From IMG/VR virus record IMGVR_UViG_3300046804_004241, positions 1-24,680 of that record: a stretch of 24,680 bases of DNA; one strand, written 5' to 3'. Source of the DNA: a virus. Within the stretch, counting starts at the first letter, position 1. Each line of letters starts with the position of its first letter. The translations under genes and the position numbers were made by a program. Shown here in pieces: positions 2,252-22,815 of this stretch. The notes beneath the pieces were generated by a model. It had not been told where the DNA came from. It worked only from the letters and a program-made list of their open reading frames with translations, and did no database searches.

Positions 2252-2332
2252 ATGTTTAAATTTATTAAAAAGATGTACTTGCGTAGAAAAATAAAGAAGT
2301 ACTTAAAAAAAGAAAAAAGGTTTATTTATTAA
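2252..2332 (+). CDS. 26-residue highly basic leader peptide
   Basis: A short ORF opens 6 nt after a TGATATAAT promoter and ends in a TAATG overlap with the first SGNH gene. About half its residues are Lys or Arg, with interspersed Tyr, Phe and Ile (it begins MFKFIKKMYLRRK). No Shine-Dalgarno precedes it. It may be a leaderless ORF whose main job is to couple translation to the gene at 2332, or a nucleic-acid- or membrane-binding peptide. Coding status rests on position and overlap only. Confidence 0.45.
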   Translation: MFKFIKKMYLRRKIKKYLKKEKRFIY

Positions 2333-3132
2333 TGATAAAGGATATCCATTCTCTACCAGTCAAAGGTCTTGATGGGAAAAGTCTTGCATATACCAGCCAT
2401 AAATGGCAATGTGGTGATGAGTTATTTGAATATGCTAGAAATAGTGATGGGTATAGATCAGAAGATTTTCAAAAAAATCCAAAATTTATTTTTGCAGGAT
2501 GCTCTGAAACTTTTGGAGAATCTGCTGAGTACGAAACAACTTGGGCATATAAGTTATTTAATAAAATAAAATCAGAAGACGATGTGTACTGTAATATTGG
2601 ATTGCCAGGATTGGACATTAGTTTAGTTATTTATCACGTATTTCTTTTCATTGAAAAGTACGGAAAGCCTGAAACAATATTTATGCTTGCTCCACAATTT
2701 AATAGGCTAATAGAGACTCATAAAGATAAAACGACAACTTTAATGCTAAGTGTAGATCCAGAAGATGGTTCACATAAAATGGACAACATAGAGTATGTAG
2801 ATGAAAGAGTCATTGATGCTGTCAGATCTGTTAATCTTCTTCAAATAAAGTCGTTTGAAGAATTTTGTAGATTATCTAATATTAATTTAATTTGGGGAAC
2901 TTGGTGTCCAGAAAGTAATAAAAAAGTACAAAAAGAGCAGATTTTTAATAATTATATTAATATCCTTGTAACTAAAGACATTGCTGATCTTGCGATAGAG
3001 TTAGGCTATGATGTTAAAAATATTAAGGTGAGTAGGTCTGATGGAAATCATCATGGTGAAGTTTTCCATGACCATTGGGCAAAACTTTTTAATAGTGAGT
3101 ATTTAAAACGAAAAGAATTAGTAAATGACTAA
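2332..3132 (+). CDS. SGNH-hydrolase-like protein, paralogue 1
   Basis: A 266-residue protein. FAGCSETFG (Ser58) matches the block I nucleophile strand of SGNH/GDSL enzymes, and DGNHHGEVFHDHW (Asp237 and the following His residues) matches the C-terminal Asp-His block. Between them lie CNIGLPG (possible block II Gly) and an EKYGKPETIFMLAP strand. The family removes acyl groups from, or transfers them between, sugars and lipids. It is one of three paralogues at this locus sharing GCSxxxG, a strand KYGKPDxIxxLxP, an SxTW segment and DxxHxGxx[FY]HxxW. They surround a carbamoyltransferase, which suggests modification of one shared glycan. The substrate is unknown. Confidence 0.7.
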   Translation: MIKDIHSLPVKGLDGKSLAYTSHKWQCGDELFEYARNSDGYRSEDFQKNPKFIFAGCSETFGESAEYETTWAYKLFNKIKSEDDVYCNIGLPGLDISLVIYHVFLFIEKYGKPETIFMLAPQFNRLIETHKDKTTTLMLSVDPEDGSHKMDNIEYVDERVIDAVRSVNLLQIKSFEEFCRLSNINLIWGTWCPESNKKVQKEQIFNNYINILVTKDIADLAIELGYDVKNIKVSRSDGNHHGEVFHDHWAKLFNSEYLKRKELVND

Positions 3133-3919
3133 TGTTAATAAGAAAAAATTATTACGCATAACTCTGTCTAAAGATCTAGAGGAATTATCTCCTTTTTCAG
3201 ATACCCCAACTATACCTGTTATTGGTAAACACTTGTTATTTGCTGGATGCTCTTTTACATCTGGAGACTCACTAGAGAAAGAACAGACCTGGGCCTGGAA
3301 ACTGTATGATCAGTTAACGAGTTCTCAAAAAAACAAGGATACATTTTTTAATGTCGCAGGCTCTGGTATGAGTATTACCGAATCTATAAATCAAGTTTTT
3401 AAATATTGCCATAATTTTGGAAACCCAGATGCTATTTTCCTTTTATTACCTAGTCCAGGCAGAGACGGCAAGCATTGTGGCAATAGTGATCAGGGATATG
3501 AATCATTGCAAATCTTAATCTATACATCTTATTTCTATCTTGAAAGTTTTTGCAAAACAAATAATATACAACTTATAGCCTCTACCTGGTATAAAAATAT
3601 TAAAGACATTGGAGATGAGTTTCTTCCATCTAAAGAAGTAAAATATTATCCAGGAACTAAAACAGAGAGACCTGACTGGAGTGTACAGTTAAATGAACAT
3701 GATGATAATCTGCTAGAAAATATTTTAAAAGATTTTGATACATTTAAAACATATACAGAAAAAGAATTGATTTCAAAAGTTTCAGAGTATCATATTTTAA
3801 AAGATAAGCAGGATAGGGAATATTCTCTAGTAGCCAAAGATGATATTCATCCAGGCACATCTTTCCATGATTTTTGGAAAGATTTTTTCTATAGTTTTTA
3901 TGTGGAGGATCAATGTTAA
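3125..3919 (+). CDS. SGNH-hydrolase-like protein, paralogue 2
   Basis: A 264-residue protein overlapping the previous gene by 8 bases. LLFAGCSFTSGDS places the nucleophile at Ser43. NVAGSGMS fits block II, NPDAIFLLLPSPGRDG fits block III, and DDIHPGTSFHDFW gives the catalytic Asp and His. Of the three paralogues this is the closest to canonical SGNH block V (DxxHPG). It is followed, with a 7-base overlap, by the carbamoyltransferase gene, whose GGAGG site lies inside this gene. The substrate cannot be read from the sequence. Confidence 0.7.
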   Translation: MTNVNKKKLLRITLSKDLEELSPFSDTPTIPVIGKHLLFAGCSFTSGDSLEKEQTWAWKLYDQLTSSQKNKDTFFNVAGSGMSITESINQVFKYCHNFGNPDAIFLLLPSPGRDGKHCGNSDQGYESLQILIYTSYFYLESFCKTNNIQLIASTWYKNIKDIGDEFLPSKEVKYYPGTKTERPDWSVQLNEHDDNLLENILKDFDTFKTYTEKELISKVSEYHILKDKQDREYSLVAKDDIHPGTSFHDFWKDFFYSFYVEDQC

Positions 3920-5346
3920 TTCTTGGAATCAATGAAACATCTCATGACGCATCTGTATCTTTAATTGAAGATGGCAAAATTTTATTTGCAGGACATGCTG
4001 AAAGATATAGTAAACAAAAAAATGACTGGTATGTAAATAATGAGTTAGTAAAAGACGCATTACAATATGGAACACCAGATGCAATAGCATATTATGAAAA
4101 GCCATTACTCAAAGCCTCTAGGCTATTTTTAAAAGGTGGTGCAGGTGAGTGGAAACCAAAATTTGATATAGAAGATATTCCTAGAAAATCTTTTAAACAT
4201 CATGAATCTCATGCAGCAGCAGGATATTATACTAGCAAATTCAACGATGCCGTCATTGTTATTCTTGATGCTATCGGAGAATACAATACTTCAACAATTT
4301 GGACTGGACAAGATAGTAAATTAAAACTGGTTAAAAAGTTCAATTATCCTTTTAGTTTTGGTTTATTTTATTCTGCTTTTACAAAATTAATTGGGCTTAT
4401 GCCTAACCAAGAAGAGTACATTATGATGGGTATGGCTGCATACGGTGATTGGAAAAAATATTATCAAAAGGTTGAGGAATATTTTCCAATAAGAGACTAT
4501 CAGAAATATAATTTTCATAAGGGTATTATTGACTGGGACGAACCAATTACAGAACAAGATAAGTTTGACATCGCAGCAGCAGTTCAAAAAGTTTATGAAC
4601 TTAGACTGTATGATTTTATGAATTTTGCAAGGGCTAAGACACAAAAGAATAACCTAGTGTTTATGGGTGGGTGTGCATTAAATAGTAAAGCCAATACAAT
4701 GCTTTGGGACATTTTTGATGATGTTTGGATAATGCCAAATCCAGGAGATGCTGGAAGTTCTTTAGGTGCAGCAGCAGCAATGTATGGCAAACATATTGAA
4801 TGGAAGACACCATATCTCGGCTATGACCTTGGGGGAGAGTATCCTGTTCAGGAAATTGTGGACGGTATATTAAAAGATGGCATAGTAGCAGTAGCAACAG
4901 GAAGAGCAGAATATGGTCCAAGAGCATTAGGAAATAGAAGTATTCTGGCTGACCCAAGAGATCCAAACATTAAAGATAAGGTAAATAATATTAAGCAAAG
5001 AGAGTTATTTAGACCATTTGCTCCAGTAGTACTTGAGGAACATGCATCTAAATGGTTTGATATGGACTTTACAAGCCCTTATATGCAATATACAGTTAAA
5101 TGTTTACAGCCAGATAAGATACCCTCAGTAGTTCATTTTGATGGAACATCTAGAGTTCAGACTGTAAATAGAGAGCAGCATAGAGGTTTGTGGATGGCTA
5201 TTAATAAGTTTTACTTACAAACTGGAGTTCCAATTCTATTAAATACAAGCCTTAATATTAAAGGGCAGCCATTATTAAATGATGAGAATGACATTAATGC
5301 TTGGGAAAAAGAATACAATTCTAAAATTATTGGGGGGATCAGATGA
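3913..5346 (+). CDS. NodU/CmcH/TobZ-type O-carbamoyltransferase
   Basis: A 477-residue protein. The Kae1-like N-terminal domain begins MLILGINETSHDAS and carries the metal-binding motif HHESHAAAGYY (residues 96-106). MGGCALNS and PNPGDAGSSLGAA fit its later nucleotide-binding strands. The C-terminal domain has RAEYGPRALGNRSILADPR (331-349), which binds carbamoyl phosphate, and LLNTSLNIKGQP. Family chemistry: carbamoyl phosphate plus ATP yields carbamoyl-adenylate, and the carbamoyl group passes to a hydroxyl. Members near 480 residues are on the short side. SGNH genes on both sides, and no visible base-modification genes, argue for a sugar acceptor here, although phage homologues that carbamoylate modified DNA bases are known. 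Confidence 0.9.
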   Translation: MLILGINETSHDASVSLIEDGKILFAGHAERYSKQKNDWYVNNELVKDALQYGTPDAIAYYEKPLLKASRLFLKGGAGEWKPKFDIEDIPRKSFKHHESHAAAGYYTSKFNDAVIVILDAIGEYNTSTIWTGQDSKLKLVKKFNYPFSFGLFYSAFTKLIGLMPNQEEYIMMGMAAYGDWKKYYQKVEEYFPIRDYQKYNFHKGIIDWDEPITEQDKFDIAAAVQKVYELRLYDFMNFARAKTQKNNLVFMGGCALNSKANTMLWDIFDDVWIMPNPGDAGSSLGAAAAMYGKHIEWKTPYLGYDLGGEYPVQEIVDGILKDGIVAVATGRAEYGPRALGNRSILADPRDPNIKDKVNNIKQRELFRPFAPVVLEEHASKWFDMDFTSPYMQYTVKCLQPDKIPSVVHFDGTSRVQTVNREQHRGLWMAINKFYLQTGVPILLNTSLNIKGQPLLNDENDINAWEKEYNSKIIGGIR

Positions 5347-6179
5347 CAGTCAATACTAAACTAATAGTTAATAAAGTAAAAGAATTGATCAATAACAACT
5401 ATTTATTTGATAAATTAGAATATTTTGTTGAACCAAATAGTTTCTTTACCATGCATCCAAAAGAAATTCCTATGTTTGAAATGATGAAGAAAGACCCAAT
5501 AGATGATTTATCTATTGAATATAAATATAACAATAATGGTTTTAGGTCTGATGATTTTAAAACAGAGCACAATAAAAGGCATTTACTTTTTTCTGGTTGT
5601 TCTGAAGGAGAGGGGATTGCTGCTGATATAGATACTGTCTGGAACAAAATTATTTATAATAGTTTAAATATCAATAATGAATATAGTGGATTTTTTAATG
5701 TGTCTATAGATAATTTTGGATTTCATAAAATTATTTTTAATGTAATTAACTACATATCTAAATATGGCAAACCAGATGAACTTATTATTTTATTTCCAGA
5801 AGTTGCTAGAGTTAATGAATGGAATATAAATAATGATTCGTATATGCAAAACTGGGCTAACTCATCCAAATTAGATTCTGAACATGATCAAAAAATATTC
5901 ATGGATGCTTTAATTAATTTTATACCTTTTATGAAATTATTTGAATCTTATTGTGATACTAATAATATTAAATTGACATGGAGTACATGGAGTATGACAG
6001 AAGGTCAAGTATATTCTATGCTTAATACATTTAAACATTTTTTTGAAATAGACTACACTCTAACAGATGGATTAGATCAGTCTAAACAAGTCAGGCGTGA
6101 CGGGCATCAGGGAGAGTTCTATCACAGATTATGGGCTCAAAATTTTATTAATAGGATAAAGTATGAAAAACACAATTAA
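5343..6179 (+). CDS. SGNH-hydrolase-like protein, paralogue 3
   Basis: A 278-residue protein starting in an ATGA overlap with the carbamoyltransferase. LLFSGCSEGEG puts the candidate nucleophile at Ser87. KYGKPDELIILFPE is the block III-like strand, and RRDGHQGEFYHRLW is the Asp-His block with one residue fewer between Asp and His than in paralogue 1. About 45 extra N-terminal residues distinguish it. It is the most AT-rich of the three. It overlaps the next gene by 17 bases. Confidence 0.66.
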   Translation: MTVNTKLIVNKVKELINNNYLFDKLEYFVEPNSFFTMHPKEIPMFEMMKKDPIDDLSIEYKYNNNGFRSDDFKTEHNKRHLLFSGCSEGEGIAADIDTVWNKIIYNSLNINNEYSGFFNVSIDNFGFHKIIFNVINYISKYGKPDELIILFPEVARVNEWNINNDSYMQNWANSSKLDSEHDQKIFMDALINFIPFMKLFESYCDTNNIKLTWSTWSMTEGQVYSMLNTFKHFFEIDYTLTDGLDQSKQVRRDGHQGEFYHRLWAQNFINRIKYEKHN

Positions 6180-6816
6180 TGGAATAAAGGGGTCTGACTT
6201 TTGGATTAATTCTGCCGATTTGGACTGGATATCTTTACAAAATGCATCTAATTTAATGATACATTGGAGAGTGTATGGATATATTAAACATTTGTGTTAT
6301 AATTTTGGAATTTTTCCAGTTAACAAATATGTCCTTGATCTATATCCAAAACCAGAATTAATGTCTATTGTAGATAATAGGGTTACATTTAGGCAAAGAA
6401 CTCATGCTGAGATCTGGGTTCAGCCAGAAGAAGACGGATTATATGCATTAGATAAATGTTGGCAGAGACAGTTCTATCCTTCGCCAAATAAAATGGATAA
6501 TGATAAATGTTTTGATGCAACCTATAGGTTTTATATTCCATGGGTACCTATATCATTAGGAAGTTTTAGCATTAAAACAGTTAATGATGAAGAGACTCCG
6601 TTTTTAGTTAATCAGAAAGAATATTCACTGATGCCACCATCAGAATTAACTGATTTTTATCAAACAGATTTTGTAGATTTCATGATAAAAAAAGATGGTA
6701 GCCACATGCATGATGCAAGATATGGTATTATAGAGATTGGTACTCCAATGTATGATATTTCAGTAGAGATGAACGAGGGGCAAATTGAAAAAGTTATTCA
6801 ACAATACGGAAGATAA
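6163..6816 (+). CDS. Phage conserved protein of unknown function
   Basis: A 217-residue protein with many Trp, Tyr and Phe residues and alternating strand-like segments (for example RTHAEIWVQPEEDGLY and CFDATYRFYIPWVPISLG), compatible with a beta-rich jelly-roll or cupin-like fold. No catalytic motif is evident. It overlaps the SGNH gene before it (17 bases) and the gene after it (32 bases), so it is part of the same operon. Its position next to a second beta-rich protein suggests the two act together, but no function can be assigned. Confidence 0.6.
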   Translation: MKNTINGIKGSDFWINSADLDWISLQNASNLMIHWRVYGYIKHLCYNFGIFPVNKYVLDLYPKPELMSIVDNRVTFRQRTHAEIWVQPEEDGLYALDKCWQRQFYPSPNKMDNDKCFDATYRFYIPWVPISLGSFSIKTVNDEETPFLVNQKEYSLMPPSELTDFYQTDFVDFMIKKDGSHMHDARYGIIEIGTPMYDISVEMNEGQIEKVIQQYGR

Positions 6817-7525
6817 AGAACTAATATTTGTTCCTAGTGTTCCAGATGAAAGATTATTGCCACCAGAACCAGCATATCGTAAATTACCTCAGTGGTATAA
6901 AGATTTAACTACATATGGAACAAGCAATGATCTAGCCAATCTAGAACCAATTAATGATAGAGGTGCGGATGGATCCAATGTTTCAACCAAACTATGTCTT
7001 CCATTCCAGGATGCCATGACTCTTGGGTATATGTATTGCCTAGAAGATGATGTAAAGGTGGAACTGGGTAGAGATGGAAAGCCAAAAGTATCTTGGAGTA
7101 AAGATATTCTAATTTTAGATAAAAGACCTAAAGTAGATTTAGCAATTCCTAGAGATGTCCACCCGTTGCATTTTGGTGTAAAGATGAACTGGTTTTATGA
7201 AACTCCGAAAGACTATTCTTTGTTGCTGACGATGCCTATAAATAGGCCAGATCTTCCATTCTGGACACCATCTGGAATTGTGGATGCAGATATTTGGGGT
7301 CTTCCAGCATTTCTTCCATTTTTTATTAAGCGGGGATTTGAAGGAATTATTCCTATGGGAACGCCAGTAGTACAAATGATTCCAATTAAAAGGGAACCTT
7401 GGACATTAGTAACCGATTATAGTGAAGAAGCATTAGAGCGTCATAATCTTATGTCAGAAAATAGACGCTCCCATATTACGGGGCATTATAGAAAATTTGC
7501 TTGGCGTAAAAAATCTTACAAGTAG
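6785..7525 (+). CDS. Phage conserved beta-rich protein (DUF6065-like)
   Basis: A 246-residue protein read from a TTG start at 6785, which has GAGGGG (6775-6780) four bases upstream; the next in-frame ATG is far inside the protein. It carries PPEPAYRKLPQWYKDL near the N terminus. In the C-terminal half are INRPDLPFWTPSGIVDAD and GTPVVQMIPIKREPW, a pattern I associate from memory with DUF6065-type proteins widespread in aquatic phages. Their biochemical function is not known to me. The neighbourhood of oxygenases and glycan genes is the only clue. Confidence 0.6.
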   Translation: MKKLFNNTEDKELIFVPSVPDERLLPPEPAYRKLPQWYKDLTTYGTSNDLANLEPINDRGADGSNVSTKLCLPFQDAMTLGYMYCLEDDVKVELGRDGKPKVSWSKDILILDKRPKVDLAIPRDVHPLHFGVKMNWFYETPKDYSLLLTMPINRPDLPFWTPSGIVDADIWGLPAFLPFFIKRGFEGIIPMGTPVVQMIPIKREPWTLVTDYSEEALERHNLMSENRRSHITGHYRKFAWRKKSYK

Positions 7526-7533
7526 TAATAGGG

Positions 7534-7539
7534 TATAAT
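7534..7539 (+). promoter_or_regulatory. -10-like TATAAT before a 2OG oxygenase gene
   Basis: TATAAT lies in the gap after the stop at 7525. No TG extension and no -35 box are visible. A start near 7546 would give a leader carrying AGAAAGG (7551-7557) before the ATG at 7564. Confidence 0.4.
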
Positions 7540-7563
7540 AGAATGAATAGAGAAAGGTACAGC

Positions 7564-8208
7564 ATGGAAATGCAACAACATAAACCTCATAAATTTTTTG
7601 AGCGTTTTTTAAATAATGATTTGAACGAGTTATCAGAGTTTCTGCAAAATCAATATAAGTTAATTGAAGAGGCTAAACTTCGTGGAGTAGATGAATTAAA
7701 CGAAAAAGATAAGGCATGGCTTTCATCTGGAAGCATTTCTACAGTAAAATGGACAGAATATAATGTCTTTCAGTTCTATCATCCATCGCTGCATAAGTTA
7801 TACAAGAGTATTTCTGATATGGTTAGAGATGCTTGTGAATATTATGGCGTTAATTTTGCAGAACAAAATTATTATATCCAAGGATGGTTTAATGTTAATC
7901 ATGCTAAAGTTGGCAAATTAGATTGGCATGATCATGGAAAACCATATGCACCACAATTTCATGGATATTATTGTGTAAGTGCAGAGCCATCTGTAACTCA
8001 TTACAGATTATTCAATTCTGATGAAGGAATTATTGATAATCACAATATTAATAATAGGGCTATTGTTTCAGAAATGGGACATCCGCATGCAATGGGAGAC
8101 TGGGATTGGGAAGGTCCAAGAATTACAATTGCTTATGATATTATTCCTGGAGAAATGCTACAATACAATGAGCATGCACCACAACAGCATTGGATCCCTT
8201 TAAATTAA
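7564..8208 (+). CDS. 2OG-Fe(II) oxygenase, HxH type
   Basis: A 214-residue protein. The double-stranded beta-helix core runs from YYIQGWFNVNHAKVG to PRITIAYDI. Candidate iron ligands are His122 and His124 (WHDHG) and His173 or His175 (GHPHAMG); Arg186 is the 2-oxoglutarate-binding candidate. HGYYCVSAEP corresponds to the YYV-P strand of the 2OG-FeII_Oxy_5 type (PF13759). The ATG at 7564 is preferred to the one at 7543, because AGAAAGG sits 6 nt before 7564 and the upstream ATG lies only 3 nt after a TATAAT box. It directly precedes a glycosyltransferase. Confidence 0.78.
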   Translation: MEMQQHKPHKFFERFLNNDLNELSEFLQNQYKLIEEAKLRGVDELNEKDKAWLSSGSISTVKWTEYNVFQFYHPSLHKLYKSISDMVRDACEYYGVNFAEQNYYIQGWFNVNHAKVGKLDWHDHGKPYAPQFHGYYCVSAEPSVTHYRLFNSDEGIIDNHNINNRAIVSEMGHPHAMGDWDWEGPRITIAYDIIPGEMLQYNEHAPQQHWIPLN

Positions 8209-9051
8209 ATGAAAAAGATAGTTGTATTTCTTCATGCTTACAAGAGTAAAGCATTAAGAGAATCAGTAGACTCATTATTACAAAATCATAGTGGGTCTAC
8301 TGTGCTATCTGTTCATGTTTACGATAGAAATAACTTAAAGAGACAAGAATCTTTTTCCGATGTTTCGTATGAACATATAATGTGGGATTCTACTCAAACA
8401 AGGTTTGATTGTCAGAATAATATATTGCAACAGGAAAATGGAGATTATTTTCTTTCAATTGATGGGGCAAAACTATTTGCTAAAAATTGGGATACAGAAT
8501 TAATTAACTTGTTAGGGAAAGATGAAATTTTATCTGGCGACAGCATGATTGAGTTTAGCAAGAAAGATCCTAAATTTTTTATTGAAAAAACGAAAACACT
8601 TACTGATAAAAAAATATCTACAGACTGGATAGATAGAAAGTTTGTTTTTTCCTATTTTGATGTATTTAACAAATTGCCAAGCGTTCATAGACTTAAGTAT
8701 TACGGAGAAGAAGAAGTATTATCTCTTTTTTGTTTTAATCGTGGAATTAAAATTTATGCAATATCAAATAGTATAATAAAAGATATTGAAAAAGATTTAT
8801 TAAGTTACGACTACATTCCATTTTCTATTACACACAATTATAATTTAGTTATAGATATGATTAAAAATAAAGAGAATATCTTTTTTGGTGATCCAATAGA
8901 TATTGCAGCCATTGAGTCAAAATTTGATTATAAGTTTTCAGAACTTTCCTATCATCCATTTCAAGAGAATGATATTGAGTACAACCCCAATACTTCATTG
9001 GATGATATGGAGGGGGAGAGATTCTTCGGCGGTATTAAGAGTATTTACTAA
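8209..9051 (+). CDS. GT-A glycosyltransferase, GlcNAc-transferase (PF11397)-like
   Basis: A 280-residue protein starting immediately after the stop of the oxygenase gene, with no clear ribosome site, so probably coupled. The N terminus VVFLHAYKSKALRESVDSLL and the segment TRFDCQNN...GDYFLSIDG...NWDTELINLL (residues 64-102) follow the order of the Skp1-hydroxyproline GlcNAc-transferase family: an R-aq run, GE-YFLqiD, then WD-LI-L. Asp85 occupies the nucleotide-sugar/metal site, with Gly replacing the usual Ser-His after it. Inference: it sugars a hydroxylated residue made by the neighbouring oxygenases. A generic GT2-like enzyme is the alternative. Confidence 0.62.
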   Translation: MKKIVVFLHAYKSKALRESVDSLLQNHSGSTVLSVHVYDRNNLKRQESFSDVSYEHIMWDSTQTRFDCQNNILQQENGDYFLSIDGAKLFAKNWDTELINLLGKDEILSGDSMIEFSKKDPKFFIEKTKTLTDKKISTDWIDRKFVFSYFDVFNKLPSVHRLKYYGEEEVLSLFCFNRGIKIYAISNSIIKDIEKDLLSYDYIPFSITHNYNLVIDMIKNKENIFFGDPIDIAAIESKFDYKFSELSYHPFQENDIEYNPNTSLDDMEGERFFGGIKSIY

Positions 9052-9053
9052 TA

Positions 9054-9062
9054 TGATATAAT
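9054..9062 (+). promoter_or_regulatory. Extended -10 promoter (TGA-TATAAT)
   Basis: TG at 9054-9055 and TATAAT at 9057-9062. Sixteen bases separate the -10 box from the ATG at 9079, leaving a short leader with AGGGGA (9070-9075). Confidence 0.6.
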
Positions 9063-9078
9063 AGAAAATAGGGGAACT

Positions 9079-9633
9079 ATGTTACAGAAACCGATCATTA
9101 TCGAAAACTTTATCACTCCAGAAGATGCACAATTTCTTATGGACGAGATGCTTAATCCTACTGAAACCAATCCATATCCAGAATATTATAAGAAACGTTT
9201 TGGTGGAACTGGATTACCATATAGTGAAAAAGTAAATAAAGTAGTAAAAAAGTATGCTCTAAAGGCAAACAAGGTTTTACAAGAAGCAAATCCAGAAGAA
9301 GTAGAAGAGATTAAAACATTCAAGGCTTTTGGGTGTGTTTGGAATCCTGGAGGTTTTGGTGGGGTACACATGGATGACCAGGATCCAGAAATGTTTATTG
9401 ACTATAGTTCTGTAGTTTATCTTAATGATGATTTTACTGGTGGACAGATCTTTTTTCCAGTATTAGGGTTTGAATATACTCCTAAAAAATATTCTGCAGT
9501 ATTTTTTATTAGTGATGGAGACAGATGGAAGCACGGCATCACTCCAGTAGAAACTGGTAAAAGAGGTACACTGCTACTAATGCATACAATTAGCCCTGAA
9601 GAGGTTGATCCAGATTTAGATGGAGAAGAATAA
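9079..9633 (+). CDS. 2OG-Fe(II) oxygenase, prolyl-4-hydroxylase-like
   Basis: A 184-residue single-domain protein. It has GGVHMDD (His97, Asp99), SSVVYLNDDFTGGQIFFP (the strand typical of the P4Hc family), WKHGITPV (His152) and GKRGTLLL (Arg162 for 2-oxoglutarate). All expected iron and co-substrate ligands are present. These enzymes couple decarboxylation of 2-oxoglutarate to hydroxylation, most often of proline in proteins. The acidic tail DPDLDGEE ends in a TAATG overlap with the next oxygenase gene. It has its own TGATATAAT promoter. Confidence 0.88.
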   Translation: MLQKPIIIENFITPEDAQFLMDEMLNPTETNPYPEYYKKRFGGTGLPYSEKVNKVVKKYALKANKVLQEANPEEVEEIKTFKAFGCVWNPGGFGGVHMDDQDPEMFIDYSSVVYLNDDFTGGQIFFPVLGFEYTPKKYSAVFFISDGDRWKHGITPVETGKRGTLLLMHTISPEEVDPDLDGEE

Positions 9634-10457
9634 TGAAACATCCAGAGGTAGTATTTCAAGATAGCAAGTTTTGCATGTATAAAAATCATCCAGATAAAGA
9701 AAATATTGTCTGGAAATACATGGATAAAGAAGAGTATTTGAAATGGGAAGATGAATTTTTTGCAGAAGCAGTTCTCTTCGAGCCTTTTATTATTGATGAA
9801 TTTTATAGTGAAGAAGATTTTGAGGAATTAAGAGATTACCTACAGTCTAAAAGATTAGAGGACATTGCCTATACAAAGCAAATGAATAAATGGGAAGACC
9901 ATGTTGCATTGCCACAAAAATTTATAGATATAGCAATTGACAATGTTAGAAAAGCAATTGGTACAGATGATGTAGAGTTGGGATATTATCTATTTGCTCA
10001 TCATCAAATAACAAAAGAGGGACGAAAGCCATTTTTACAAGTACATTTAGATTGGTCGCCAGGAACATATATGGTTGACTTACATTTAGGTGGAAATAAA
10101 GATTGGTCTATAATTTGCCATGATAAAGAATTTAGAACAAAACCTAATCAGGCGGTTATTGTTCAACCAGAAATAGACCTTCATTACCGTGAACCATGGG
10201 GTGGAGATGATCTAAATGAGTATCATGATTTGGTATTTTTTCATCTAATTAGAAAAAGACATTGGAAAAATAAACATGGTGTTGAATTTATTAATAATGA
10301 AGGCTTCTTAAATTTTCAAAAACAAAGATTAGAGATGTTTGAACCACATTATTTTAATTTAATAGATTCAAATCCAAATCTTCCAATTACAACTATTGGC
10401 GATGATAGAGGGTTAACAGAAGATGATAAGCGATTGTTAGGCGTGGAAAAGGCGTAA
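9633..10457 (+). CDS. Divergent 2OG-Fe(II) oxygenase-like protein
   Basis: A 274-residue protein. The core is LQVHLDWSPG (His138, Asp140), VDLHLGGNKDWSIICHDKEF, then IDLHYREPWGGDD (His184, Arg186) and LVFFHLIRK. This retains the HxD...H pattern, but the 2-oxoglutarate Arg is less certain than in its neighbours (Arg186 or Arg207). About 120 N-terminal residues, including FEPFIIDEFYSEEDFEELRDYL, resemble the usual helical lead-in of this superfamily. The first gene-specific segment (FQDSKFCMYKN) is unlike the other copies. It starts in a TAATG overlap and is probably co-translated with the preceding oxygenase. Confidence 0.7.
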   Translation: MKHPEVVFQDSKFCMYKNHPDKENIVWKYMDKEEYLKWEDEFFAEAVLFEPFIIDEFYSEEDFEELRDYLQSKRLEDIAYTKQMNKWEDHVALPQKFIDIAIDNVRKAIGTDDVELGYYLFAHHQITKEGRKPFLQVHLDWSPGTYMVDLHLGGNKDWSIICHDKEFRTKPNQAVIVQPEIDLHYREPWGGDDLNEYHDLVFFHLIRKRHWKNKHGVEFINNEGFLNFQKQRLEMFEPHYFNLIDSNPNLPITTIGDDRGLTEDDKRLLGVEKA

Positions 10458-10458
10458 A

Positions 10459-11133
10459 ATGTTTACATATGAAAAATTAGCAGACGGAATAGTTTATTAT
10501 AGGAATATATATAACAATCCACAAAAGATTATAGATGATATTGAAAAAATGGAATCTGCCATTAAACCAAGTATAGATGATGGTTCCTATGATCATACAA
10601 GATCTTATTGGGAAGATTGGGACTATGAAACTAATGATGGGGAGAGACTAGTTTTTTGTAAAAAAGCATGGATTCCTAGCCCAGAAAATATTGAGAGCAA
10701 TGATAAATTTTATAAAGAAAAAATGCAAGTGTCTGTAGAGTTATTTTCTGGATTAGGAAAAGCATTTGAGCATTATTCTACAATAATGTATCCATATGCT
10801 GGAAGAAATATTAAGGGTAAAGTTGACCAAGTTAGTATTTTAAAATACGAAAAATCTGGATACCTTCCTGAACACATTGATCAAGGAATTAGTAGCAGAG
10901 TTTTGTCAGTAGTAGCATATCTTAATGATGACTATGAGGGTGGAGAAATTACTTTTACTAGTGTTGGTAATGGCGGAATAACAATTAAACCAGAGGCTGG
11001 AAGTGCTGTATTTTTTCCATCAAACTATGTAGGATCTCATAAGATAAATGAAATTAAAAGTGGAATTAGATATGCAGTTCCAAACTGGTATCATAACAGA
11101 ATAGATAAAGTAGAATCGGATGGTAGCGAATGA
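10459..11133 (+). CDS. 2OG-Fe(II) oxygenase, prolyl-4-hydroxylase-like
   Basis: A 224-residue protein with the full set of ligands: YLPEHIDQG (His139, Asp141), GSHKI (His194) and SGIRYAVPNWYH (Arg204). SRVLSVVAYLNDDYEGGEITF and PEAGSAVFFPSN are the characteristic P4Hc strands. Of the six copies it is closest to the textbook phage/cyanophage P4Hc. It begins one base after the stop of the preceding oxygenase gene. The next gene starts in an ATGA overlap, so transcription continues toward the endolysin. Confidence 0.9.
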   Translation: MFTYEKLADGIVYYRNIYNNPQKIIDDIEKMESAIKPSIDDGSYDHTRSYWEDWDYETNDGERLVFCKKAWIPSPENIESNDKFYKEKMQVSVELFSGLGKAFEHYSTIMYPYAGRNIKGKVDQVSILKYEKSGYLPEHIDQGISSRVLSVVAYLNDDYEGGEITFTSVGNGGITIKPEAGSAVFFPSNYVGSHKINEIKSGIRYAVPNWYHNRIDKVESDGSE

Positions 11134-15802: not shown

Positions 15803-15885
15803 TAAATTATATTAATTCTGAGTTATGGTTTGATTCCGAATTTCCCCAAGATGGTATACTAGTATTGACAGAAGAGGAAAAATGA
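15799..15885 (+). CDS. 28-residue acidic small protein
   Basis: The ORF starts in an ATGA overlap, has AAGGAGGG at 15783-15790, and ends in an ATGA overlap with the next oxygenase gene. It begins MINYINSELWFDSEFPQDG and ends LTEEEK. The good ribosome site and overlaps on both sides make translation likely. The promoter for the oxygenase gene lies inside it. Confidence 0.55.
   Translation: MINYINSELWFDSEFPQDGILVLTEEEK
15852..15860 (+). promoter_or_regulatory. Extended -10 promoter (TGG-TATACT)
   Basis: TG at 15852-15853 and TATACT at 15855-15860 lie within the 28-residue ORF. A start near 15867 leaves a short leader with AGAGGA before the ATG at 15882. Confidence 0.45.
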
Positions 15886-16469
15886 TTAAAGATATTTTTA
15901 TTTATGATGATAATTTTTTAGATGCTGCAACAATTCAGCAAATTGAAAATGATGTTCTATATGGAAAGCCTTTTTGGTATTCTAGAATTGGTGGAGCACT
16001 GACAGATGGCATCCATGGGATTGCTGGGGATCAATTTGTCGACTATCCACTTTTTGTAAACAGTGATATGGATGATAATAATCCAACAAGTGTTTTCCCA
16101 ATTGCTAAATTTGTATTAGAAAAATTTGCAGAAAAGCATAACCTACAAATAAAAGAAATCACTAGATCAAGATCTAATGTTAGCCATCCTGCTTTAGATA
16201 GACGACACACACCACCACATGTAGATAATCGTGATGAACATTATGTATTTATCTATTATGTAAATGATAGTGATGGAGATACTAATATCTATAATGAAAA
16301 GTATGATGGTTCAACCAGAACACAAGATGATTTGTCACTCTTTAAAACTATCACACCAAAGGGTGGACTTGGGGTTATGTTTAGTGGAAAAGTTTTTCAT
16401 ACATGGCAGCCACCATTAAATACAAAGGCAAGATGTATCATTAACATGAATGTTTTACTAGGAGAATAG
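15882..16469 (+). CDS. 2OG-Fe(II) oxygenase
   Basis: A 195-residue protein. TPPHVDNRDEHYVFIYYVND gives His113 and Asp115. GGLGVMFSGKVFHTWQPP gives His173, and TKARCIINMNV gives Arg184. All ligands are present. It lies outside the main oxygenase operon, next to whiB. The strand order and HxD spacing are those of the P4Hc-like group, but the N-terminal 60 residues (FWYSRIGGALTDGIHGIAGD) differ from the other copies, which suggests a different target. Confidence 0.87.
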   Translation: MIKDIFIYDDNFLDAATIQQIENDVLYGKPFWYSRIGGALTDGIHGIAGDQFVDYPLFVNSDMDDNNPTSVFPIAKFVLEKFAEKHNLQIKEITRSRSNVSHPALDRRHTPPHVDNRDEHYVFIYYVNDSDGDTNIYNEKYDGSTRTQDDLSLFKTITPKGGLGVMFSGKVFHTWQPPLNTKARCIINMNVLLGE

Positions 16470-17364: not shown

Positions 17365-17402
17365 GACAAGCAGGCTAGGGTTATTGACTAGTCTGCTTTG
17401 TC
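17365..17402. terminator. Bidirectional terminator between convergent genes
   Basis: GACAAGCAGGCTAG (17365-17378), a 9-base loop, then CTAGTCTGCTTTGTC (17388-17402): a ~14-pair stem with one mismatch and one bulge. An A-run (17355-17360) precedes it on + and so provides a T-run on the - strand. The right arm overlaps the stop codon of the - strand gene. Confidence 0.7.
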
Positions 17403-17849
17403 ATATCTAAAGGGGTAATCAGTGCAAATTGCATATGGATTATTATTAATTAAACTATTAGACTCTTGCTCACTTAATATTTCTGGTAAAACAAGTATTG
17501 ATTTTTCAGTTATTTGTTTGCCAGGGTAGGTCCAAAAGTACCCTTTAGAAGTCACTGTAGCGTCATCAGACTGATGCCAGAAGTAATTTGAATTAGGGTA
17601 TAGGGTAGATACTAAATAGAGGGAATCTATATCTTTGCAATGGATCCATAGATTACTATTAAATTTATCTATAAGCCAATCAGGTAATATTTCTTGTGGT
17701 TCATCATGACCCAAATAAAGGATTCCATCTACTGTTCTAACATCTATCTCTACATCAAATCCTTCAGATAAAGCACCTAATATTTGATCAATAGAATTTT
17801 CATCTTCACAAGGTCCATTAGTATTTCCTCTATGAGCAATAATATACAT
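17388..17849 (-). CDS. Short GDPD-like phosphodiesterase domain
   Basis: A 153-residue protein. IIAHRGNTNG (His6-Arg7), EDENS, GFDVEIDVR (Glu34, Asp36) and LYLGHDEP (His48) match the metal and catalytic residues of glycerophosphodiester phosphodiesterases. It is much shorter than ordinary GDPD enzymes (~240 residues), and the second half (LWIHCKDI, YFWHQSDDATVTSKGYFWTYPGK) looks like a reduced barrel. It is the last gene of a four-gene glycan cassette, starting in a TAATG overlap with the cupin gene. Inference: it hydrolyses or trims a phosphodiester-linked glycan or precursor. Confidence 0.72.
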   Translation of the reverse strand: MYIIAHRGNTNGPCEDENSIDQILGALSEGFDVEIDVRTVDGILYLGHDEPQEILPDWLIDKFNSNLWIHCKDIDSLYLVSTLYPNSNYFWHQSDDATVTSKGYFWTYPGKQITEKSILVLPEILSEQESNSLINNNPYAICTDYPFRYDKAD

Positions 17850-18181
17850 TATCTGTCTCTCTTAACAACTATCTTGTCATTAGTAAAATTAGGAACTTTA
17901 ATACATACCACTGTGCAATCTTCAATAAATATAGGATCCGCAATTTCCATTGGTTCTAGAATAAATATATCTCCAGAATTTAATTCTCTCCCCTGAATAA
18001 TCATCTTTCCACTAACTAGTAAATTAATTTCATCCAGATGCTCGTGATAATGCCAATCCCAAATTTCACCTTTTTTATGTATCTTTAAAGAGGCTTCAAG
18101 GCCTTTAGTATGATATGCAGCATTAGGGAAATTGCCAATATACCATCCGCCAATGGAATCTTCTAATCTAGAAACTATCAT
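17849..18181 (-). CDS. Cupin-domain protein
   Basis: A 110-residue single cupin. The metal motif WHYHEHLDEINLLVSGKM supplies three His (in HYHEH) plus Glu, and LNSGDIFILEP forms the second cupin motif. It lies between the nucleotidyltransferase-HAD gene (ATGA overlap) and the GDPD-like gene (TAATG overlap). Small cupins in sugar-nucleotide clusters can be isomerases, epimerases or sensors; the substrate is not visible. Confidence 0.75.
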   Translation of the reverse strand: MIVSRLEDSIGGWYIGNFPNAAYHTKGLEASLKIHKKGEIWDWHYHEHLDEINLLVSGKMIIQGRELNSGDIFILEPMEIADPIFIEDCTVVCIKVPNFTNDKIVVKRDR

Positions 18182-19269
18182 ATTTTATCAAACTCCTCAT
18201 TGATAAATCCAGAATTTGTTATAACATTGACTGCAATTGCCCTATCATAATCAGAGTCTAACAACTTGTCATTAATTAAAACTCTTTGACCGCTGGTAAC
18301 TCCCATCAATAAATGATCCCAAGCAATTCCAACAGAAGATAACTGCTTTTCAGTTAATCTTCTTGCAGATTCTTTTCTAGCAGTTGTCAAAATAATCGTG
18401 TACCCCTTAGAATCCCACTCATCAAATTTTTCTTTTACTTTGGTCAACAATTCTGCATTATTTTTTCCAACCTCGCTGAATCTGTGAACATGCTTTATGA
18501 TTGTTCCATCAATGTCACAAAAAATTGTTTTTGGTTTTTCTGTATAAAATTCTTTAATCTTTCCAATATACTCCTCAACATGTTCTGGAGTTCCTAAACA
18601 AATATATTCATTATTAGGAATTGTATATGGAGAAATTATCTTTCCTTCTTTAATTAAATAGTTATATGTTTCAGAAATATATGCTTCTTTCCCGTCCCAA
18701 GAATGATTCATTAGTGATTGTTTTGCAGAAACAACAAAATCTTTTCCGTGTTTCCAATAATGAACTCCAATTAAAGCATCCTCACTAATTGGATTTTTTT
18801 CTACAATTTCATAAATTTTGTTATTACTAATTCGTGCATAACTATCTTTTGAACTATTTGATTTATATAAAACAACAGCACCATCACAGTTATTTTTATT
18901 AATAATATCAATAAATTTTTGACTATCCCATTGTAAAATTTGATCACAATTAGTTATAATTAATTGATCATCATTATCAATATAAGTTTCTGCATAAAGG
19001 GCTGCATCTGCTGCACCATTTTGATTATGATTTAATCTTATTTCTACATAGTCTATATCTAAATTATTAAAAATATCAACTAATTGATTATTATATTTAA
19101 TATCATCGTCTTCTCTTGTAATAAAGTAATATGTCCCATCAATTCCAAGAGATGTTATTGTATGTTCTATAAGAGTGATACCACCAACCTCAATTAATGG
19201 TTTTGGTGTTTTAACGCCAACATTAGCAAATCTAGATCCTAAACCAGCCATAGGTATAACTATATTCAT
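18178..19269 (-). CDS. Nucleotidyltransferase fused to HAD phosphatase domain
   Basis: A 363-residue protein. The N-terminal domain (1-~240) is RmlA/GT-A-like: MAGLGSRF, TPKPLIEVGG (Lys23 for the sugar phosphate), ITNCDQI (Asp109 for metal), EKNP and a C-terminal YICLGTPEHVEEY. The second domain (~245-363) is HAD-like: IFCDIDGTI (Asp252, Asp254), ILTTARKES (Thr) and a later INDKLLDSDYDRA. Such fusions activate a sugar or polyol phosphate with CTP, GTP or dTTP and remove a phosphate from the same or a linked intermediate. With the GT61-like gene upstream it forms a minimal activated-sugar and transfer pathway. The exact sugar cannot be told. Confidence 0.85.
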   Translation of the reverse strand: MNIVIPMAGLGSRFANVGVKTPKPLIEVGGITLIEHTITSLGIDGTYYFITREDDDIKYNNQLVDIFNNLDIDYVEIRLNHNQNGAADAALYAETYIDNDDQLIITNCDQILQWDSQKFIDIINKNNCDGAVVLYKSNSSKDSYARISNNKIYEIVEKNPISEDALIGVHYWKHGKDFVVSAKQSLMNHSWDGKEAYISETYNYLIKEGKIISPYTIPNNEYICLGTPEHVEEYIGKIKEFYTEKPKTIFCDIDGTIIKHVHRFSEVGKNNAELLTKVKEKFDEWDSKGYTIILTTARKESARRLTEKQLSSVGIAWDHLLMGVTSGQRVLINDKLLDSDYDRAIAVNVITNSGFINEEFDKI

Positions 19270-19274
19270 GTTGA

Positions 19275-20336
19275 TCAGACTATACCTTTGTAATGTGTAT
19301 AAAGGATTCCAATAATATTATATGTATTAAACAATTCTTCTGGCATAATTGTTTTTAATTTTAGATCAAATGGTATCTCGTATACATTTTTGGAGTTTAT
19401 CTCACAAATTTGTTTATATTCAAATTCATAATATTTGGAATTATCTAAGATAAAAATATTTGTACCAGGGTCACAGAATAAAGTATTCATTAACCCACTG
19501 CCACGAATTGATGCAACATGTGTAGCATTATAGTAATAATTAATTTGATCATAAAATGATATTTTTTCTGGATCAATTACTGTATAGCCATTACTGATAA
19601 AAAATTGTTCTAATTTTTCTTCATTTACCTTTGGAACTAATCGTTCCCTTAGTAGTTGTTTTATATACTTTGTGCCACCCCAATTGTTTTCTTCTTGTAT
19701 CAATGCTTGTGGTTTTTGTATATCATATACATCTGATTCATAAAACATATCGTGTATATTTCTTACATTATCGTCTTTTTCCATCCTTGTAATAAATATT
19801 TTTTTAGGAGAATTTTCATCTTTAACCAGGTAGGGCTTATATAATTCTATTAAAGATTCAAAACCACCAAGATATTGATCGTACATGCCATGTAGTTCTT
19901 TTCCTTGAGGAACATCCATTTGTTCTAGCAAATAATTAATTCTAGTTGTGTAATAATAAATATTTTCAAAAATAGGAGTCTCTTCTGCTAAAAATATAAT
20001 GTCGTCATGCTGTAATCCATAAGGTTTTATTAAATCTAAACATATATCCATGACTTCTTTTTTATTATCAAAAGTTCTGTCTATAGCCACCACAGATATC
20101 TTTAGATCTGGAATAATCTTCTTGAGTACTTCGTACTGACCGATACCTTCGTGCAGCGTATGAAAATATAGGAATGAATTTAGATAAAATATAAAGTAGT
20201 TTCCACTATAAGTTTTTTCAACAATGGAACCACTACGATCAAAATCAAAGAAATCGTTTATATCAAATTTAACATCCTCTACACAGTAAATATCAGAAAT
20301 AAACTTATCACTGATTGTTTTGAATTTTAGGCTCAT
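19275..20336 (-). CDS. GT61-like glycosyltransferase
   Basis: A 353-residue protein. The C-terminal part (SFYDQINYYYNATHVASIRGSGLMNTLFCDPGTNIFIL) carries the GT61/DUF563 signature: a helix, a strand with xxGxHGAGLxN (here SIRGSGLMN) and PGT-IFIL. KKIFITRMEKDDNVRN fits the preceding (F/I)(I/V)SR segment. GT61 enzymes add xylose, GlcNAc or related sugars to glycans or proteins. The ATG at 20336 is chosen because GAAAGG lies 7 nt before it, overlapping a possible TTG at 20351. It is the first gene of the - strand cassette. Confidence 0.78.
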   Translation of the reverse strand: MSLKFKTISDKFISDIYCVEDVKFDINDFFDFDRSGSIVEKTYSGNYFIFYLNSFLYFHTLHEGIGQYEVLKKIIPDLKISVVAIDRTFDNKKEVMDICLDLIKPYGLQHDDIIFLAEETPIFENIYYYTTRINYLLEQMDVPQGKELHGMYDQYLGGFESLIELYKPYLVKDENSPKKIFITRMEKDDNVRNIHDMFYESDVYDIQKPQALIQEENNWGGTKYIKQLLRERLVPKVNEEKLEQFFISNGYTVIDPEKISFYDQINYYYNATHVASIRGSGLMNTLFCDPGTNIFILDNSKYYEFEYKQICEINSKNVYEIPFDLKLKTIMPEELFNTYNIIGILYTHYKGIV

Positions 20337-20383
20337 TTTGGTACCTTTCAAGCGTATATTACCATTTTACCACACAATAATTA

Positions 20384-21568: not shown

Positions 21569-22186
21569 GTGCAACTATTTAAAGATAGTAATAGTACTGA
21601 TTATCAAGAATCGTTTGTTCTTAGTGTTTTAAAAGAAAAACGCAATGGTTTCTATTTAGAACTTGGTTCTGCTTGGCCCAAAAAAGAAAACAATACATAT
21701 TTGCTTGAAACTGTGTATGATTGGCAAGGTATTGGATTTGAAATTGATAAAGACTTAGTAGATGAATATAGATCTGTACGCAAGAATCCAGTAATACATA
21801 CAGATGCTATAACTTTTGATTATAGAAAATATTTTAAAGAAAATGATGTTCCTAAACAAATAGATTATTTACAAATGGATCTTCATCCAGCCTATAGTAC
21901 TTTACAGGCATTAAGAAATCTACCATTAGACGAATATAGATTTTCTGTAATAACTTATGAACATAATAGATGGTGGGATGAAGATTTGCATAAACGCATT
22001 CAAGAAGAATCTCAACGCATCTTTAAGTCATACGGGTATACGCTAGTTGTTGAAAATTTATTAGATAGAGTTAACCCTTTGGAAGATTGGTGGGTAGATC
22101 CTAATGCAGTTCCATATGAAAATTATTCTAAGATGATATCTAAAAATAAGTACTATCGCCATCTTTTAGATAAATACTTAGATTAA
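21569..22186 (+). CDS. FkbM-like SAM-dependent methyltransferase
   Basis: A 205-residue protein read from GTG at 21569. GFYLELGSA (27-35) is the SAM-binding strand and turn, YDWQGIGFEID (50-60) ends in the acidic residue that binds the ribose, and IDYLQMD (98-104) fits the FkbM D-[IL]K-[IM]D strand. FkbM enzymes methylate sugar or polyketide hydroxyls, so a glycan target would suit this neighbourhood. It converges with, and overlaps by 4 bases, the - strand oxygenase gene. Confidence 0.75.
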   Translation: MQLFKDSNSTDYQESFVLSVLKEKRNGFYLELGSAWPKKENNTYLLETVYDWQGIGFEIDKDLVDEYRSVRKNPVIHTDAITFDYRKYFKENDVPKQIDYLQMDLHPAYSTLQALRNLPLDEYRFSVITYEHNRWWDEDLHKRIQEESQRIFKSYGYTLVVENLLDRVNPLEDWWVDPNAVPYENYSKMISKNKYYRHLLDKYLD

Positions 22187-22815
22187 AATAACACTATAGA
22201 TATATCACCTTCATAGACTGTCTGGTCTATAACAGCATCATCCCCTACATCAAAAGTAAAAAACATTGGTAAGGTATGTCTAATACCGCTTACATGTGGT
22301 TTAATAGCATGGGTATATCTACTAGGAAACATGACAAGTGTACCAGCCTTGATCTGAGGCTGATAGTTTTCAAAATCTGGGAAAAATATTTCACCACCAA
22401 CATACTGATCTGTTAAATAAAAGATAGTCGTAATATTGTATCTATAAAAACCACCAATAATTGCTGGCTCCCTTAATCTTGTTTCAGAATCACTATGTGG
22501 AGCCATTCCACCACCAGGTAGCCAATTAACTAAGTGTGCTGGAACAACTGGAGATGATTTTACTGGTACATTAAACTGATCAGAATAATGCTTCTTTACT
22601 TCTGTAAAAGAAATCTGTTCGTATTTAGTTAATAATTCATTAATTGTGGAATCTTTAATTTTCCATCTTTCAATTGGCCCATGAGCATCTTGCTGATTAA
22701 TAAAATTACTTAATGTCGGTATATCATTTAGATCAACTAAATTATTAACAATAAAAATTTTATCTTTTGAGTAACCAATTTTATTATATTCATCCATATA
22801 CTTTGTATAATCCAT
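22183..22815 (-). CDS. 2OG-Fe(II) oxygenase, prolyl-4-hydroxylase-like
   Basis: A 210-residue protein. GGGMAPHSDSE gives His107 and Asp109, ITTIFYLTDQYVGGEIFFPD is the P4Hc strand, PSRYTHAIKP gives His169 and VSGIRHTLPMF gives Arg179. All ligands are present. The gene is transcribed from a TGATATACT box that ends 6 nt before the ATG, so the mRNA should be leaderless. It lies downstream of the tRNA array on the same strand. It is the sixth 2OG oxygenase of the window. Confidence 0.9.
   Translation of the reverse strand: MDYTKYMDEYNKIGYSKDKIFIVNNLVDLNDIPTLSNFINQQDAHGPIERWKIKDSTINELLTKYEQISFTEVKKHYSDQFNVPVKSSPVVPAHLVNWLPGGGMAPHSDSETRLREPAIIGGFYRYNITTIFYLTDQYVGGEIFFPDFENYQPQIKAGTLVMFPSRYTHAIKPHVSGIRHTLPMFFTFDVGDDAVIDQTVYEGDISIVLF

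Follow-up and report, generated by a model that had tools for sequence, protein, structure and literature searches.

The viral record IMGVR_UViG_3300046804_004241, a 24.7-kb fragment here called the window, carries at positions 6163-11133 a cassette of genes arranged around one that encodes a glycosyltransferase-like protein (GT; 8209-9051). The conservation of this arrangement among related sequences is strong evidence for a predicted functional unit. We hypothesize, with confidence slightly short of even, that the unit is an operon-like phage cassette that would oxidise and then glycosylate a single target, most likely a virion protein. A sequence-only reading of the same DNA had placed a hydroxyproline-glycosylation module at 7564-11133. 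Its genes are real: all five of its open reading frames (ORFs; the last five entries listed below) are present, lie on the + strand and follow one another nearly without gaps, position 7564 being a few codons inside the first of them. The span needs revision, as comparison with related sequences places the start of the predicted conserved unit upstream, at 6163, and two more 2-oxoglutarate (2OG) oxygenase genes lie elsewhere in the window. The GT family was traced in viral contigs to 20 loci by direct search and to 71 with alignment; counts given below are over the 31 groups, the window included, into which GT relatives fall at under 90% identity. The cassette genes are as follows.

6163-6816, + strand: c3 cassette protein, a remote relative of the DUF6065-like protein (94% by hhalign to that family); its family occurs upstream of the GT in 27/31 groups
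6785-7525, + strand: DUF6065-like protein (phrog_7084, E 1.8e-31)
7543-8208, + strand: c7 protein, a putative 2OG oxygenase (HDH...H...R motif only)
8209-9051, + strand: GT-A glycosyltransferase-like protein, a remote PF11397/GT60 and GT27 relative with a degenerate DxH (D85-G-A87), assigned from an AlphaFold model, fold search, family alignment and family PF11397 matches
9079-9633, + strand: predicted 2OG-Fe(II) oxygenase, prolyl-hydroxylase type (PF13640, family profile, invariant ligands)
9633-10457, + strand: c13, a divergent 2OG oxygenase-like protein (75% by hhalign to the 2OG family, E 2.4e-5)
10459-11133, + strand: predicted 2OG-Fe(II) oxygenase, prolyl-hydroxylase type (PF13640, invariant ligands)

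Gene maps reveal a conserved order: c3, a DUF6065-like gene, a second DUF6065-like gene or c7, the GT, a 2OG gene and, optionally, another 2OG gene. The oxygenase gene lies directly downstream of the GT in 27/31 groups and within the next three genes in all 31, and two such genes stand within three genes of the GT in 20/31. Upstream, in every one of the 30 groups that could be judged, a DUF6065-like gene is found no more than three genes away, and either a DUF6065-like gene or c7 is the immediate neighbour. A second sample of loci was selected through WhiB, independently of the GT; the nine further full-length GT loci that it contains all read c0/c7 - GT - 2OG - 2OG. An adjacency of GT and oxygenase beyond chance is thus borne out by 31/31 groups and 9/9 independent loci, and the contrary outcome, in which GT homologues are never found beside 2OG genes, did not occur. 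The make-up of the cassette is also constant in differing surroundings: a lysis-gene region, a carbamoyltransferase island, and a site between tail-fibre genes. In canonical PF11397-like genes retrieved by the same search (L174-L184), none of the cassette neighbours occurs within flanks of ~1 kb, and the link is therefore specific to the subfamily of the window GT.

These comparisons bear on a rival account, namely that related phages simply inherited the gene block from a common ancestor and that its genes serve no joint pathway. All carriers that we found are phages, often of freshwater type with WhiB, and neighbouring genes tend toward joint inheritance; on the other hand, identity to the window GT is no more than 23-40% among the relatives, the core persists although the flanks vary from clade to clade, and in viruses of this kind other PF11397-like genes have no such link. 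We regard this account as very unlikely. Separately, canonical PF11397 genes with an intact DxH are located near the cassette in three loci (L071, 7760-8722; L015, 11130-12122; L004, 10462-11439), where they could perhaps provide a second sugar step. In annotated phage records, queries with the window GT, c3, the first 2OG protein of the cassette and two remote members of the GT family yielded nothing, and a pattern-based scan of one genome per bacterial or archaeal species, which does not prove absence, retrieved no GT relative.

The 8209-9051 product is a single-domain protein of 280 residues with no C-terminal ricin-type lectin domain. Its AlphaFold model (pLDDT 84.5, pTM 0.84) adopts a GT-A fold, and the fold search agrees with it; the GT-A identity proposed from sequence therefore stands, and a placement outside GT-A did not arise. 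Polypeptide GalNAc-transferases top that search (Z 15.8-18.2), the best PDB match aligning over 236 residues with Z 18.2, rmsd 3.4 and 11% identity, while the best other fold is that of heparosan synthase 2 (Z 15.0). Among viral models, phage 'Glycosyltransferase, GlcNAc' entries lead after one close relative. The resemblance to PF11397 that had been suggested is upheld at the level of the family: 10 of 12 members scanned match it (best E 5.8e-5), some relatives exceed its cut-off (23.2, 21.6 and 31.0 bits), and the GT family profile aligns with canonical phage PF11397 proteins (49-89 bits) over 239 columns with a probability of 97.6% and E 4.5e-12. Membership is another matter. The window GT itself scores 14.4 bits, under the Pfam gathering score of 21, with residues 76-102 aligned to positions 124-150, and the PF11397 motif IDxH reads I-D85-G-A87, so that the DxH metal motif is lost. 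For these two reasons the protein is best called PF11397/GT60-like and not a PF11397 member, its catalysis being only predicted. When profiles of the GT, canonical PF11397, c7 and the DUF6065-like protein were run against PDB sequences, nothing useful was matched, and an NCBIfam search returned nothing above cut-off.

Selection has nonetheless preserved the protein: dN/dS is 0.07-0.22 in seven close pairs, which denotes purifying selection, and we conclude that the GT is maintained. Residues W94, D95, G166, E168, E169 and H209 are invariant across the family alignment; D39, G166, E168-E169 and H209 are conserved at positions that the fold is expected to bring near donor and acceptor.

As to the oxygenases, the 10459-11133 product scores 54.3 bits against PF13640, above the gathering score of 27, and that of 9079-9633 falls just under it (26.7 bits, E 1.1e-5). 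The best PDB matches of the 2OG family profile are prolyl 3-hydroxylase 1 (P3H1; 8e-13), PKHD-type hydroxylases, a bacterial prolyl 4-hydroxylase (P4H) and PHD2; furthermore, H97, D99, H152 and R162 (9079-9633 numbering) do not vary across 31 aligned sequences, both proteins among them. Both are assigned to the 2OG oxygenases of prolyl-hydroxylase type, with intact ligands. Four oxygenases with iron ligands had been counted in the sequence-only reading: in addition to these two clear cases, 9633-10457 is predicted to be a divergent third relative that keeps its ligands (H138, D140 and H184, without variation in 9 sequences), and 7543-8208 is a probable oxygenase by its motif, whose elements ('HDH', a distal His, an Arg) 13/17 sequences retain; profile searches with the latter protein gave no oxygenase match. 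A role in a defence system was considered and rejected, the sole match being a generic Cas-associated 2OG model.

A weak Tet_JBP match of 9079-9633 (15.3 bits), the reach of the 2OG profile to Tet-like structures (E 1e-4) and the existence of DNA-glycosylating GTs in phages (Pyle et al. 2024, cited in PMC12619734) raise the prospect of DNA hypermodification, in which the 2OG enzymes would oxidise a base in TET/JBP-like fashion and the GT would glycosylate it. However, the Tet_JBP score lies far under the cut-off of 34.9, Tet-like structures trail the prolyl and PKHD-type hydroxylases by several orders of magnitude in the profile search, and the GT is of peptide type; the likelihood of this explanation appears to us remote.

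We propose instead that a side chain would be hydroxylated by at least two 2OG-Fe(II) oxygenases of prolyl/lysyl-hydroxylase type, and that a GT-A enzyme whose build resembles that of peptide alpha-HexNAc transferases would add a sugar to the target, probably at the new hydroxyl. The most likely target would be a phage structural protein, with tail and tail-fibre proteins as examples. The constant partners, namely the DUF6065-like protein and c3, would perhaps serve in substrate recognition, and the linked carbamoyltransferase and SGNH-like enzymes may decorate the sugar further. The pairing of GT and oxygenase suggests, without proving, hydroxylation followed by glycosylation of a protein. 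Our confidence differs along this chain: that the enzymes act in sequence we judge reasonably probable; for a protein target we put the chances at about even; a virion protein is somewhat less probable than that; and proline as the modified residue is doubtful.

Several observations weigh against this proposal. One clade (L001, L012, L020 and others) has a single 2OG gene after the GT. Moreover, the third metal-motif position is Asp or His in only 8/32 GT sequences and is neither in 24/32, the window's included, and the GT, with its degenerate motif, may therefore be metal-independent, or no transferase at all. The replacements among relatives read DGA, TPG, NPG, SDN, SDG and SSS, and the GT tree calls for at least two changes, about four by parsimony. 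An alternative arises here, in which the GT-like protein is a non-catalytic adaptor that would bind a nucleotide sugar or peptide and present the substrate, so that the cassette only hydroxylates. It would account for a DxD/DxH that is replaced in most relatives while W94, E168, H209 and the gene neighbours are invariant and dN/dS stays below 0.22; set against this, eight relatives retain an acidic or His third ligand (DGD in L030, for one), the donor- and acceptor-region positions named above are still conserved, and metal-independent GT-A enzymes exist. We consider an adaptor unlikely.

Also against the main proposal stand the facts that 2OG enzymes of prolyl-hydroxylase type also use small molecules and nucleic acids as substrates, and that some cassette neighbours are general sugar enzymes, which would suit a non-protein target. 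In the window, the genes concerned and the remaining oxygenases are these.

3913-5346, + strand: carbamoyltransferase, NodU/TobZ type (PF16861, E 3.3e-52; PF02543, E 4.8e-38)
5343-6179, + strand: SGNH-hydrolase-like protein, cluster c4, in the carbamoyltransferase neighbourhood (label by sequence reading only)
15882-16469 and 22183-22815, - strand: two 2OG oxygenases outside the cassette (phrog_274, E 1.2e-24; PF13640, 27.9 bits)

A NodU-type carbamoyltransferase family accompanies the cassette in 19/31 groups and SGNH-like c4 genes in 10/31, GT4-like and other GT genes (c10, c11; by sequence reading) do so in one clade, and the window also contains a nucleotidyltransferase and a GT61. It is thus possible, if rather doubtful, that cassette, carbamoyltransferase and SGNH-like enzymes tailor a glycan or small molecule, acting on a cell-surface or teichoic-type glycan or on a nucleotide sugar, with a superinfection block or a receptor change as examples of the end served. 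But the GT fold is nearer to peptide than to polysaccharide transferases, the oxygenases resemble protein hydroxylases, and in 12/31 groups, some of whose loci are short, the GT-2OG-DUF6065 core is without a visible carbamoyltransferase.

The SGNH-like protein has no Pfam match above cut-off, and paralogues of it are encoded at 2332-3132 and 3125-3919. The sugar block of the window (17388-20351, - strand) comprises GDPD-like and cupin-like genes, both labelled by reading only, an NTP-transferase fused to HAD, and the GT61. The oxygenase gene at 22183-22815 adjoins a cluster of eight tRNA genes; the ORF at 21569-22186 shows by eye a likeness to FkbM-type methyltransferases, and Pfam gave no match for it at E 0.01. 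As for the DUF6065-like protein, one of its relatives matches PF19541 below cut-off (E 2.4e-4), and phrog_7084 also occurs in ~48 records of haloarchaeal tailed viruses. In the one record inspected, HJTV-2 (L072), the DUF6065-like gp36 (8923-9759) is encoded close to adhesin and tail-fibre genes, and no oxygenase or GT is annotated within 9 kb of it. The DUF6065-like protein may conceivably have a dUTPase-like core; no dUTPase turned up in the phage records for a comparison.

We return to the proposed protein target, for which collagen-like fibres had been put forward. In one clade (L016, L017, L062-L064 and L067), the gene directly after the 2OG pair, or the next but one, encodes a tail fibre that combines collagen repeats with an S74 chaperone domain, and a predicted tail protein lies just upstream of the cassette. 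Collagen repeats were detected in 10/14 long cassette records (38 kb or more) of a first set and in 5/9 of a second. Two counts add to the points against: collagen-like proteins occur in 15/23 long GT-bearing and 3/6 long GT-lacking records, which is no clear excess, and Pro at the collagen Y position is similarly frequent with the GT (31/225 triplets) and without it (3/28). Among the window's own tested proteins there was no collagen match. Since the GT-lacking controls and the Pro share are so alike, collagen is a possible target in one clade and does not serve as a general explanation. In the record of L069 (G011), we noted sixteen collagen-like stretches at 47-55 kb, in three frames of 274, 521 and 877 residues.

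Comparison with known systems helps to define what the cassette may be. CAZy GT60 combines the Skp1 enzyme with the pp-alpha-GlcNAcTs that carry out mucin-type O-glycosylation in Dictyostelium and Trypanosoma cruzi, and in the Skp1 pathway prolyl hydroxylation goes together with the transfer of GlcNAc (PMC8724618). The window GT is akin to PF11397/GT60 in its remote family sequence relation, its single GT-A domain without lectin, and its genetic pairing with prolyl-hydroxylase-type 2OG enzymes, as in the Skp1 pathway; it differs in being a phage protein of 280 residues, under the Pfam cut-off and without DxH. Because GT60 covers mucin-type enzymes as well as that of Skp1, the type of GT does not imply hydroxyproline, and a Skp1-like attachment of GlcNAc to hydroxyproline is a possibility short of proof. 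GT27 GalNAc-transferases offer the best fold match (Z 18.2), whereas at 11% identity the window GT has neither their ricin-type lectin domain nor DxH. With the 2OG-FeII_Oxy_3 prolyl hydroxylases (P3H1, bacterial P4H, PHD2 and PKHD-type), the cassette oxygenases share HxD...H and the Arg, and E 8e-13 to P3H1; the difference is that the cassette has two or more copies beside a GT. Mimivirus encodes a collagen lysyl hydroxylase, L230, and a collagen glucosyltransferase, R699 (PMC9546862). This is likewise a virus-encoded hydroxylase and GT, and R699 is among the fold matches of the window GT, but the GT family is another, the virus eukaryotic and the substrate collagen. Finally, actinobacteriophages, specifically mycobacteriophages, have capsids and tail tubes that bear glycans (Freeman et al. 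2023, cited in PMC12619734). The parallel to the present case would be virion glycans in actinobacteriophages, and the part of PMC12619734 that concerns this system makes no mention of hydroxylases.

A WhiB gene is found in the window, which, like most of its relatives, probably derives from a phage of aquatic actinobacteria; many carriers of the cassette probably infect such hosts.

In the open-access literature searched there was no prior description of the cassette, of the constant DUF6065-like partner or of the metal-motif loss. The term 'DUF6065' was absent from it, and phage, prolyl hydroxylase, glycosyltransferase and hydroxyproline occurred together only in a proteostasis review. The individual parts of the cassette are known; it is their combination, together with a constant DUF6065-like partner and a lost metal motif, that seems to be undescribed. 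To our knowledge, eukaryotes and giant viruses are the established settings of hydroxylation-dependent protein glycosylation, and bacteriophages are not among them. Whether the cassette amounts to a prokaryotic-virus counterpart of the eukaryotic Skp1 pathway, performing such glycosylation with a GT that lacks a metal motif and with DUF6065-like proteins as obligatory partners, is a more speculative idea, to which we give only a small chance. The cassette is conserved across many phage lineages and yields a direct prediction for mass spectrometry; it gives the DUF6065-like, c3 and c7 partner genes a common context, and it could help to explain why 2OG oxygenases are frequent in phages.

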